The position numbers were made by a program, and so were the translations under genes. A stretch of DNA of 64,000 nt from contig NC_061082.1 in NCBI RefSeq assembly GCF_021917145.1, positions 16,719,682-16,783,681 on the forward strand, given 5' to 3'. The first letter of the stretch is position 1, and every line of letters starts with the position of its first letter. Shown here one piece after another: positions 27,641 to 34,763 of this stretch. This DNA comes from Hypomesus transpacificus. Lineage: Eukaryota > Chordata > Actinopteri > Osmeriformes > Osmeridae. The notes below the pieces were generated by a model. The model saw only the letters and a list, made by a program, of their open reading frames with translations, made no database searches and was not told where the DNA came from.

Positions 27641-27766
27641 TCGGGGGAGAGCGCGTACGCAGTCCCCCACTACCAGAAATTATGCAGTCGAGATTCCCGC
27701 ATTTGGGGAATTCGCAAAGGTCAGCACAGCCGAAGTGCAATGGCCGAGCCTCGCCCTGGGTGAACC
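27641..27766 (-). pseudogene. U1 snRNA gene, 3' portion (nt about 40 to end)
   Basis: The minus strand reads as U1 snRNA from GGTTCACCCAGG through the stem-loop II region (CCATTGCACTTCGGCTGTG), the Sm site (AATTTCTGG) and the final stem-loop (GGGGGACTGCGTACGCGC). A few substitutions relative to the vertebrate consensus are visible. It is cut at about nucleotide 40 by the LINE; the 5' portion lies 7 kb away at 34728-34763. Confidence 0.93.
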
Positions 27767-28679
27767 TTTAAGCTTTTATTGGTTTTACCAAAATTAAAAA
27801 CAGTTATTTACAGTATTGGTAAAAACTTCCACCACATTTCACCCAGTGACAATATGTCAATCACAATCACCCCTTACCTCAAAACGAAACACACAAAATC
27901 AACAGTGTGGGCCCTCCCTGCGCCAACCTAAAACCCTCCAGGAAAGCGAGGAAATACTCCTCACAAAAAACTCTTTGAGAAAATTTAGAAGAAACCTCGG
28001 AAGGAGCCATTCGAGGGGGTATCCCCTCCTCCAGGGATGGTTGGGGGTGCTGTAGGTCGGGCCGAGTCCAAGTGCCGTGCAAAAGATGTGTGTCTGAGAT
28101 GAGAGTTCCGGTAAGTGGGGTGGGGTGTGTGGGTGGGGAGGGTTGGAGGGGCCAGACGTCTTGATGAGTGGGGGGGGGGGGGGGGGTTCTTGTGTCGGGG
28201 GGGTGTATTGTCCTTTTCGGGGGCCCAGGGAGAGGGGTTCCTGGTGCTGCAGCTGGTGTGCCGGGAAGGGGTGATAGCTGGTCCTTTGGGGGGGGGGGGG
28301 TCAAGTGGAGGGTGCTGCTGCTGGGACGGTGTTTGGCAAACTGGAACCCTGTGAGGTGATAGGGGAGAGGGTGGAGAGGGGGGGAAAGGAGGGGGTGAGC
28401 AAACGTACTGGGGTGCAGGTGTAGTGTGCTGGTGTACTTCCCTTGTGGCCTGGTGGGTTTCTCCTCTCCGGACCCTCGTACTGGGGACAGATGTTGATGT
28501 CCCCGGGTCTTCGGGCTTGGTGCCGGAACGGGTGAAGTGGTGAAGTGAGTGGAGTGGTGGCTGCCAGGGCAGTGGTGGTGGGGGTGGTAGGGGCGATGAG
28601 GGTGTTGGGTGGAAACGCCGTCGGCGTTCGGGGACGGAGCGTGGAGTGCAGAGATGGTGTGATGGCATGGGGGGAGGAG

Positions 28680-31600
28680 CTAGATGGACACGTCCTTCCA
28701 CCTCTCCACCCCCCATGTGTCTCTGGCGGTGTCCGGATTATTTTTGAAGTCCAGAATGGCGTAGTCCCTGAGGAGGAGCGTGATTCTCCTCCTCTGGACG
28801 ATGAAGGGTTGATCCTGTTGATGATAGACCCTGCTGTTTCTTGTCTCCCATATCACCTGCTTGACGGTGCTGACGATCCTCCACTGATGTTGTAGGCGGG
28901 GGGTCGTACAACCCCCCGGAGGACCGAACAGGATGTCGTCCGCCGTCAAGCGAGGCAAGGCGTTGTTCCTGTAGAGGGAGACAGAGGGAACAAACAGGGC
29001 CCAGACCCGCCTGGCCACGGTGCACTTGACGAACAGGTGGTAAATGTTTTCAGTGTCAGTGCAACCGTGGGGGCAGAGCTCGGTACGGGCCATGCGCCGT
29101 CTATACATGAATTCTCTGGTGGGGAGACAGCCGTGAGCAGTTGACCAATTCAGATCCTTTTGTTTATTGTTGATGCATTTATGGTTGATGTTTTTCCATA
29201 CCTGTTGGATGTCCAGGGCCGGCCTGGCCTTGGGTGGTGTGATGGTGTCCTTCCCTCTGATGTGTGCCATGATGTCCTTGTATTTCCAGGAGGCCAGGCC
29301 GGCTGTGGGCAGACCCGTCCTGAAGGCAAAGTTCTTCCACTCCCTGTATACTTGTGGGGGGTCCCAGCAGTAGGGCGCAGTGTGGTTAATGGCAGTGTTG
29401 GTGAAACGGAGTGCTCTGAGTGTGGGTGTGGCGAAGTACCTCTCAAAGGTTCCTGCCTTCCTGTCCGGTTTATGGATGTTTGTGACCAGTTGGGAGAGGC
29501 CCTGTGCCCTGATGATGTTGAGGATGTCTGGGACCCCCTTCCCCCCCTTCTCCTCGGCGCTGAACATGATGGTCCTTTTCAAGCGCTCCATGGTGCTCCC
29601 CCAGACAAAGGTGAACATCAGGCGCTCGATGGTTTTGCTCGTCACCCTGTCCGGGGGAAACACCCTCCCGACGTAGAGGAGAATGGGGAGGATTATTGCC
29701 TTCAGGATCAAGATCTTACCCGTTATTGTGAGGGACCGTGCACTCCATTGGCCGATCTTTTGCTTGGCATGTTTGATGGTGTTGGCCCAGGTCAGGGTCC
29801 CTTTCCCGTTGTTTTGGTAGGTGACTCCGAGCAGCTTGATGTTGTCTGTCTTTACAGGGAAAGAGGTGGCTATGTCTTCTTTCCAGTATTGCGACAGGTA
29901 CAGTTCGCTCTTACCTCGATTGACCAGGGCGCCGGTGGCTGCACAGTAGTCGTCCACCACCCTCGTTGCCGCGGCGATGGAACGACTATCTGTGCCGACG
30001 ATGGTGATGTCGTCCATGTACGCCACCACCTGGAGCCTCTCTCCCTGGGCCCCCGGGAGGTGATAACCCTGGATGTTCTGTGTCGCTCTTATTTTACGGA
30101 GGAAAGGCTCCAGGTAAATGACATACAGCAGGGGTGCTAGGGGGCATCCTTGTCTGACCCCAGACCGGATGGGAAAGGGGTCTGTCAGCTGTGAATTGAC
30201 CAGGACTCTGCTCGTGATGTTGTTATAGCAGAGCCTGGTCCAGTGGATGAGGTGTTTTGGGAAGTTCATCCTCCCTAGCACCTCCTGCAGGAAGCCATGG
30301 CTTACCCGGTCGAAGGCCTTCTCTTGGTCGAGGCAGAGGAGTGCGAAGGGGGACCTCCGCTCCTGGGAGTGAAGGATGAGGTCTCTCACCAGGAGCAGGT
30401 TGTCATTAATGGACCTTCCGGGGACGCCGCAGGTCTGGTCCGGGTTGATGATTGCGGGGAGGTGTTTTTGGAAGCGCCACATGAGGGCCTTCGTGAGTAT
30501 TTTATAATCGGAACAGAGGAGGTTGATGGGGCGCCAATTCCGGAGGTCCTTGAGGTCCCCCTTCTTGGGTATTAGTGTTACTGTACTCTGTCGCATCGAT
30601 TCTCCTAGCCTCCTTTCCCTGTAGACCGCTCGGAGGACCTGAGCCAGATCGCCCTTGATGAGTTCCCAGAAGGCCTGATAGAATTCTGCCGGGATCCCGT
30701 CCGGTCCCGGGGCCTTCTGGGTGTTCATGGCGTGCACGGCCCGGGTGAGCTCCTCCAGACTCAGCTCTGGTTCCTCGCCCTCGCCCCCCTCTTTGATTTG
30801 GTCCAGACCGTCGAGGAAGGTTTCCGCCAGCGTCCCGTCCGCCGGCTTGGTGTCAAACAGCCGGCCGTAGAACTCCTCGGTCACCCTCCTGATGTCGTCG
30901 CTGTCCGTGACGGTCTGGCCGCTGGTGTCGTAGAGGGACAGGATGCCTTGTTGTTTAGACCGTGCCCTGCGGAAAAAGTGTTTGGTACATTTCTCTTCCT
31001 CCTCCAGGCCCTGGAGTTTATCCCTGAAAGTCTTCCTCTCCTGTTCTTCCCGATAGAGTGTGGCCAGGTGTTCCTTGGTCTCTGACAGCTCCCGGGTCAC
31101 ATCAAATCCTCTGAGTTGGAGGAGGCTCAGGCGTTGCAGGGCCCCGTTGTGGTGGTGGAAGCGGGCCCTCTGTTCCCGAGCCTTCCTCCTCCCCACCCCC
31201 CCGAAGAACCCCTTGACCCGGGACTTTACCATTTCCCACCACTCTATCGGGGATGTAAATAGTTCCTTCAGGGTCCTCCACTCCAGGTAGCGCCTGGAGA
31301 AGGAGTGGCTGATAGAGGGGTCCTGGAGTACAGATGTGTTCATCCTCCAGGGCCCCCTCGTTGGTCTGGCTGGCCCCTCCCATCGCAGGGTCACGGTCAG
31401 CATCCTGTGGTCTGAGAAGTGCGTCGCCTGGGTCTTGAATGAACACACTCCCAGACCTGGCGAGAGCAAGAACATGTCGATCATTGAAGAGGCAGAGCCA
31501 GAGGGTCTCACCCACGTGTGTGTTGGGGGGGAGGTGCCGCCGACGTCCGTCAGGGAGAAGTCATTGATGATGTCCTGTAGTGCGCTTTGGTGGATCTGTC

Positions 31601-33784: not shown

Positions 33785-34727
33785 AGTGGTGGTGGTGGTG
33801 CGTGTCCCTGAACCTGCAAGGATGGGGGGAGAGAAGAAGACTCAAGAGCCGGCGGGACCACTCGGTAGACCGTCCCCAAGGGACGGTACTCTCCTGTGGC
33901 CCGCCTGCTCCTAGAGGTGTTGTTGGGGCTCCTGGCCCTCCTCCCGTCTGGTCTGGGTGGACAGTCTTCCTGTGGAGGGCAGAGGAAGACCTGAGAGCAG
34001 GGCAGAGCCACAAGAGTGCTTGGCCCTAGGCGTGCCACTCTCCTGTGGCCTGCCTGCTCTCGGCGTAGGTGGTGGGGCTCTCTCCCGTCCTTCCCTCCTT
34101 CCTCCGGGTCTGGTCTGGCCTCCTGGTCCCGACACGTCAAGCGGTCTGGCCAGCCGCAAGGGGGGGGGGGGGTATGGGGATCCGGGAGATGCGGGGGTAC
34201 TGGGAGTCGAGGGGGGGTGCCGGTCTGCACCGACCGAGCACCTCCCTCCGTTCCTCTGCCTCCCGCCTCTCACCGGGGCCAGCAGGCACCGGAGGATTCC
34301 GGCCCTGTCCTGGGTGTTCCGCAGCTGGTCGGGTCTGGGAGTCGGCGGGGTACCGGGAAAGCCTGAAAGGTCAGGGCTGGTCTTCCACGACCTAGCACCC
34401 GCCTCCTGCCTCCCTGCCTCCCGCCCCTCACCAGGCCCTGTGGCACCGGAGGGTTCCAGGCCTGTTCGAGGTGATCCGCAGCTGGGTGGTTGGGCCGGAG
34501 ATTTTTGGCAGAACCGCGGGCAAGCCACGTATTCTGCCTCTGTCTCCAGCCAAGTGGTGAGAAAAGGGGGGGAAAGAATGAGAGAGAGAGGGGAATCGGA
34601 AACTGGCCTCCACCGTAGAGCCAACAAAGCAATCGCAAGCCGTGTCACATACACCGCAAGACAACGGACTTTCGATTTCTTTCCCGACCACCACGGCTTA
34701 ACGGAAACCAGAGTGCCGATTGGATAC
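33785..34727 (-). promoter_or_regulatory. LINE 5' UTR with internal repeats
   Basis: GC-rich, with poly-G/C runs and two pairs of imperfect repeats: ctcctgtggcc-ctgcctgct at about 33891 and 34041, and ctcaccagg/ggccagcagg-type blocks at about 34262 and 34428. The part to about 34170 is also present in the second LINE copy (44100-44516). It probably holds the internal promoter. Confidence 0.6.
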
Positions 34728-34763
34728 TTCCTGATCAAGGTGTCTCCCCTGCCAGGTAAGTAT
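34728..34763 (-). pseudogene. U1 snRNA gene, 5' portion (nt 1-36)
   Basis: The minus strand begins ATACTTACCTGGCAGGGGAG, the exact 5' end of U1 including the 5' splice-site recognition sequence. It continues through stem-loop I to about nucleotide 36, with one difference from the consensus, where LINE sequence begins. Together with 27641-27766 it makes nearly a whole U1. Confidence 0.93.

Follow-up and report, generated by a model that had tools for sequence, protein, structure and literature searches.

Positions 27,641 to 34,763 of the studied stretch of Hypomesus transpacificus DNA contain a U1 small nuclear RNA (snRNA) gene interrupted by a long interspersed nuclear element (LINE) of 6,960 bp, with both gene parts on the same (minus) strand. 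The window is the whole analysed stretch of 64,000 nucleotides (nt), corresponding to C23:16719682-16783681 in an assembly of 437 Mb in 376 contigs. The interrupted gene comprises, in the direction of its transcription:

34727..34763, minus strand: 5' part of the U1 snRNA gene, nt 1-37, with the change C33G relative to the 26 uninterrupted genes of the array described below
27767..34726, minus strand: LINE of 6,960 bp with a GC content of 59%, full length as far as known
27642..27766, minus strand: U1 snRNA gene, nt 40-164, the same as in uninterrupted array genes; A39 is common to U1 and the LINE end

The stretch ending at 27766 matches the U1 family of Rfam with 100.8 bits (E 2.1e-26, model positions 40-166), and inclusion of the LINE end lowers the score to 91.5 bits. 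The 5' part alone gives a weak match (14.1 bits, E 0.18), which begins precisely at the U1 5' end. When rejoined, the two parts are identical to human U1 in 143 of 164 positions, and only nt 38-39 are absent. Uninterrupted U1 genes of the array read GATCACGAAGGAGGTTCACCC at the insertion point (27 rows in the overlapping loci L004-L010, representing 26 distinct sites), while the window copy reads GATCAGGAAG-LINE-(A)GGTTCACCC. Apart from C33G, it differs from intact array genes in the loss of G38 and in sharing A39 with the LINE end; no target duplication accompanies the insertion, and the 5' join is at U1 nt 37. The split of the U1 gene by the LINE is confirmed, with coordinates good to within one base. 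The original observation, that halves of a U1 gene lie on one strand at the two LINE ends, is borne out, and the halves are now refined to nt 1-37 and 39/40-164. An assembly chimera or a template-switch artefact could mimic such a split in a repetitive array with an assembly gap nearby (a run of N, L020/L026), but the halves are collinear and on one strand, array spacer borders both of them on the outer side, and the same 3' junction is found again in a second copy (L021, below) which holds no N. An artefactual origin is highly improbable.

The split gene belongs to a tandem 5S/U1 array, whose units measure about 860 bp and which is located just before the window in C23. Two 5S rRNA features flank it in the window:

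35219..35337, plus strand: 5S rRNA gene from the 5S/U1 array unit, located upstream of the interrupted U1 gene
27483..27530, plus strand: 3' remnant of a 5S rRNA gene, on the opposite side of the interrupted U1 gene

U1 sites in the array were counted by means of an exact U1 word in the fetched C23 stretches, and their total equals the number of C23 matches in a search of the genome with U1, in which 40 of 43 candidates were scored. Among the 28 array sites, 26 are uninterrupted, with U1 nt 1-38 directly upstream, and two carry the LINE at the identical nucleotide and in the same orientation. The uninterrupted sites were judged at the insertion point, not on the integrity of the whole gene, and at one of the 26 the sequence meets an assembly gap. 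Folding of an array U1 stretch that starts 8 nt before the gene gave no useful signal (z 0.20). A second, smaller U1 cluster (L013, L015 and L016; C89:179000-190800) consists of six matches spaced by about 1.7-2.5 kb; it has AAGGTGG at the target instead of AAGGAGG, and none of its members is split.

The second insertion, L021 (C23:16590700-16596300), is found in another unit of the same array, ~156 kb from the window copy. Its LINE is 5'-truncated (LINE nt 3473-6960) and identical to the window copy in 98.8% of the main body and in 96.6% of the 3' stretch, and its 3' end meets U1 at the same nucleotide. On the 5' side, the element is preceded by U1 nt 38-55 and then by array spacer. The occurrence of U1 nt 39-55 on both sides makes this segment a candidate target duplication of 17 bp, or 16 bp if the last A belongs to the LINE. 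In addition, a U1 fragment in L021 (242-284) stops at nt 43, where it is joined to array spacer, near the LINE insertion point. Several array breaks located at U1 nt 37-43 are possible cleavage scars.

To what extent the two copies have separate histories can be judged from their differences. In the reverse transcriptase (RT), substitutions affect 14 of 592 synonymous and 7 of 1,979 nonsynonymous sites (dN/dS 0.148; binomial P 2.5e-5), and the only stop in the compared L021 frame is the terminal one. The 3' untranslated region (UTR) differs at 14 of 815 sites, again in excess of nonsynonymous sites (Fisher P 3.9e-4), and CpG context is found for 6 of the 21 differences in the open reading frame (ORF). 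The synonymous excess and the 3' UTR divergence indicate that both copies stem from lineages in which the protein was under selection, and not from a dead insertion copied within the array. Since the substitutions are shaped by selection and the 5' ends are different, two separate insertions are favoured; the comparison makes the window and L021 LINEs look like independent insertions at the same U1 nucleotide. Alternatively, a single insertion into U1, by chance or weak preference, was followed by unequal exchange or gene conversion in the 5S/U1 array, and L021 is its shortened descendant. Arrays do homogenise, both copies are in one array, their spacers and 3' U1 flanks are nearly identical, and L021 is positioned at a rearranged array edge together with another broken U1 piece. 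The substitution pattern described above is nevertheless unexpected for a dead duplicate, the 5' end of L021 is another one, with U1 nt 38-55 next to it, and U1 3' pieces and spacers differ between the copies, with a 23-bp deletion in L021 and a 15-bp gap in the window. We consider this course of events rather unlikely.

A genome search with the LINE 3' end disclosed 11 matches, all of which were scored. Two of the 3' ends, those of the closest pair, are in U1. Four further members, in C128, C33, C16 and the window copy at 40938, have 3' ends 85-89% identical, and five more distant ends are 69-80% identical. Rfam analysis of eight 3' flanks (L047-L054) detected no U1 and one weak miRNA match, which is attributed to chance, and neighbouring genome stretches that were fetched contained no further LINE copy (E 1e-8). 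In one of these flanks (L051, 89-142), a UnaL2-type LINE tail with 52.5 bits (gathering score 55) is situated beside a decayed copy of the U1-LINE family. The proposal that this family targets U1 near nt 36-40 therefore stands in part: a second copy does share the identical nucleotide, but 9 of 11 3' ends lie elsewhere, and specificity is not absolute. This is the outcome of the check that had been suggested, inspection of the 3' flanks of the copies, with 2 of 11 at the same U1 position and 9 of 11 outside U1.

Among members outside U1, one is located in the window:

40938..44792, minus strand: rearranged, decayed family member outside U1, with 85% identity in the 3' end and about 91-92% in the larger pieces of the body

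This copy had already been described as residing in non-U1 sequence, which is correct; its pieces are in addition out of order, and it is placed beside a stretch that by eye resembles protein-coding sequence. Compared with the window RT it has a dN/dS of 0.40, gaps and two in-frame stops. As a full test of random insertion it was rejected, being rearranged and about 9% diverged, yet it is a real non-U1 member. The C128 copy is long (to LINE nt 568), with 97-98% identity in three sampled ORF stretches and 86% in a 5' UTR stretch. Both the C128 copy and the 40938-44792 copy cease to be similar at a poly(C) tract near LINE nt 555-568. The copies in C128 (C128:3959380) and C33 (C33:138345) are inserted in one and the same dispersed repeat, roughly 55 bp apart (L075-L079; 40 of 207 first-look candidates for this repeat were scored). 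The truncated C33 copy, at the insertion site GCGGTTTAAG, shows a target duplication of up to 16 bp, GGTTTAAGCCATCTTT, similar to that in L021 but in a different target. About 80 bp of target were lost at the C128 copy in comparison with five empty repeats, and no target duplication was seen at the truncated C16 copy.

Under uniform random insertion, the chance that 2 of 11 insertions fall at one given U1 nucleotide is P ~1e-13, assuming 40 U1 genes and independence, and this value rises ~160-fold when a coincidence at whichever U1 nucleotide is counted. A LINE without U1 preference could still insert wherever a site matches loosely, with AGGT/GGTT at the nick, and have hit U1 by luck. Such an element would account for the nine 3' ends outside U1, for the sequence at the C33 site, for AGGT at the junctions of the 40938 and C16 copies, and for two relatives in one dispersed repeat. 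Against it, a preference for 4-6 nt alone leaves very many other sites in a genome of 437 Mb, and two separate insertions at the same U1 nucleotide have the very low probability given above. Insertion into U1 by luck is, in our estimate, quite improbable.

AGGT stands at the 3' junction of all six members whose 3' ends are at least 85% identical, and it also corresponds to U1 nt 39-42. In distant members AGGT is absent from the four of five that have a readable end, and the end of the fifth (L051) could not be placed. Five empty copies of the repeat that was hit in C128 do not have AAAGGT at the corresponding place, and for this reason AGGT probably belongs to the element as its 3' end, which pairs with the target. 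The suggestion that the 3' end was primed on U1 is supported in part, as LINE RNA could pair with the nicked U1 strand at nt 39-42. At other non-U1 junctions, AGGTCAC of the 40938 copy can be set against U1 AGGTTCAC (0.15% of window positions match as well within three offsets), and AAGGTAGATCACC of the C16 copy against U1 AAGGAGGTTCACC. Such U1-likeness at non-U1 junctions was recognised post hoc, loses force through C128, in which AGGT is apparently part of the element, and was not relied on.

Modules of the window LINE are as follows:

32068..33841, minus strand: ORF1, ZCCHC3-type RNA-binding domains and a CCHC knuckle, broken once
28680..32071, minus strand: ORF2, apurinic/apyrimidinic endonuclease (APE)-type endonuclease followed by RT and zf-RVT, with one frame change near 31.6 kb
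34219-34328 and 34376-34485, minus strand: imperfect direct duplication in the 5' UTR, 79% alike

ORF1 is distributed over two overlapping frames, 33841-32852 and 33417-32068. The ORF2 start codon at 32071 overlaps the ORF1 stop (ATGA); the endonuclease is encoded in 32281-31550, and RT and zf-RVT in 31622-28680. The endonuclease matches Exo_endo_phos (5.3e-07), and this piece had no match in PDB at E 0.001. Among solved proteins, the best match of the RT is LINE-1 ORF2p (E 1.3e-63, 218 bits), followed at a distance by R2 (3.9e-27, 97 bits). According to its LINE-1-like RT and APE-type endonuclease, the element is classified as a non-long terminal repeat retrotransposon of the L1 group. The L1 clade proper, of mammalian type, is defined by ORF1 of the Transposase_22 type and a poly(A) tail. 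The window LINE shows neither feature: its ORF1 matches only ZCCHC3 RNA-binding domains and CCHC, and the 3' end, CCAATAAAAGCTTAA(A), lacks a poly(A) tail; read up to its junction, the end is AATAAAAGCTTAAA(GGT). ORF1 (window 32852-33841, minus strand) matches both Pfam RNA-binding domains of ZCCHC3, with 1.6e-24 and 1.8e-14. The human ZCCHC3 protein is described as a LINE-1 suppressor in a published report (PMC10351740), and it may, as a guess, be derived from ORF1 of such a LINE or have a common origin with it. Scanning of viral contigs with the RT revealed no relative; a U1 pattern scan gave two contigs, L001 and L002, without LINE, U1 or 5S match at E 1e-8.

Taken together, the element is probably an L1-group, APE-type LINE whose youngest subfamily prefers U1 snRNA genes at nt 38/39. 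It is the youngest subfamily that targets U1, as a property or a preference, and the family as a whole follows no such fixed rule. As in target-specific LINEs, copies with separate inferred histories are present at one nucleotide of one gene family, while residence of most copies at the target, another feature of such elements, holds for the closest pair and not for the whole set of 11. For this pair the preference is well supported, but it is based on two insertions in one array. Several other observations weigh against it. Beside the nine 3' ends outside U1, the LINE was detected in none of the 12 examined U1 matches outside the C23 array. The C128 copy, so similar in the sampled ORF stretches, is outside U1, and recent activity was consequently not confined to U1. 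The LINE 5' end is defined from one copy, and gene conversion in the array could spread or alter junctions. Finally, U1 nt 38-55 in L021 is preceded by array spacer instead of U1 nt 1-37, and the duplication is accordingly incomplete or was later rearranged.

If U1 is indeed preferred, insertion could proceed as follows. The endonuclease would cut U1 between about nt 38 and 39 (GAAGG^AGGTTCACC), and the nicked bottom strand would prime reverse transcription, with the LINE RNA end GCUUAAAGGU pairing with the U1 primer (AGGT, nt 39-42). A second cut ~17 nt downstream would generate the duplication of U1 nt 39-55 in the 5'-truncated L021. By analogy with R2, RNA of the full-length window copy may have begun in U1, in which case the U1 leader would guide the 5' join. 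In its most specific form, this would be a U1-specific APE-type LINE subfamily with a transcript from the U1 promoter, a leader of U1 nt 1-37, AGGU as a 3' guide, and nearly scarless full-length insertion, a scenario we find conceivable and somewhat doubtful. If true, an R2-like strategy would have evolved separately in the L1 group, and relatives without guidance by U1 would go elsewhere, as in C33.

Known targets of LINEs are rRNA, U2 and tRNA-linked sequences. Keno and Mutsu are Tx1-group LINEs, and the endonuclease of Mutsu is of APE type. R2 and R1 are inserted in sense orientation in a multicopy RNA gene, that of 28S rRNA, with an exact 3' junction and a possible host-gene-led transcript, and in all of these features the window LINE resembles them. 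It differs in the gene occupied, in an endonuclease unlike that of R2, and in an RT that is LINE-1-like and not R2-like (218 vs 97 bits). Among the matches listed in open-access literature, with Repbase outside this scope, there was no U1-targeting LINE. The list of snRNA-gene targeters presented in PMC4640811, as of 2015, includes only Keno and Utopia (U2), Dada-U1 (U1) and Dada-U6 (U6), with U1 genes targeted solely by a DNA transposon. For zebrafish, PMC3706591 mentions Mutsu for 5S, Keno for U2 and Dewa for the tRNA-Leu spacer, and further Dada transposons are described in PMC8869645. The fish LINEs Keno and Mutsu likewise insert in small multicopy RNA genes (PMC3706591, PMC4640811), and Keno shares the APE-type endonuclease (PMC4640811); compared by description only, they differ in the target, U2 or 5S as opposed to U1 near nt 38/39. 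Utopia resembles the window LINE in inserting into snRNA genes, in joining them precisely at the 3' end and variably at the 5' end, and in the partial specificity of some families, but has a restriction-like endonuclease and targets U2, in contrast to the APE-like endonuclease and U1 here (PMC4640811). Dada-U1 also occupies one fixed site in zebrafish U1 genes, but this DNA transposon has a DDE transposase, and the 6-bp duplication proposed for it, GCGAAT/GCGAAC, lies in another part of U1 (PMC3706591). By its RT and APE-type endonuclease and its other position in U1, the window LINE is distinct from Dada-U1, and by its U1 target from Keno, Mutsu and Utopia; U1 genes look like a new target for such elements. 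A LINE preferring U1, beside close relatives located elsewhere, would illustrate how specificity arises or disappears in a single young family, and a natural endonuclease/RT pair would become available for a DNA site that is short and highly conserved.

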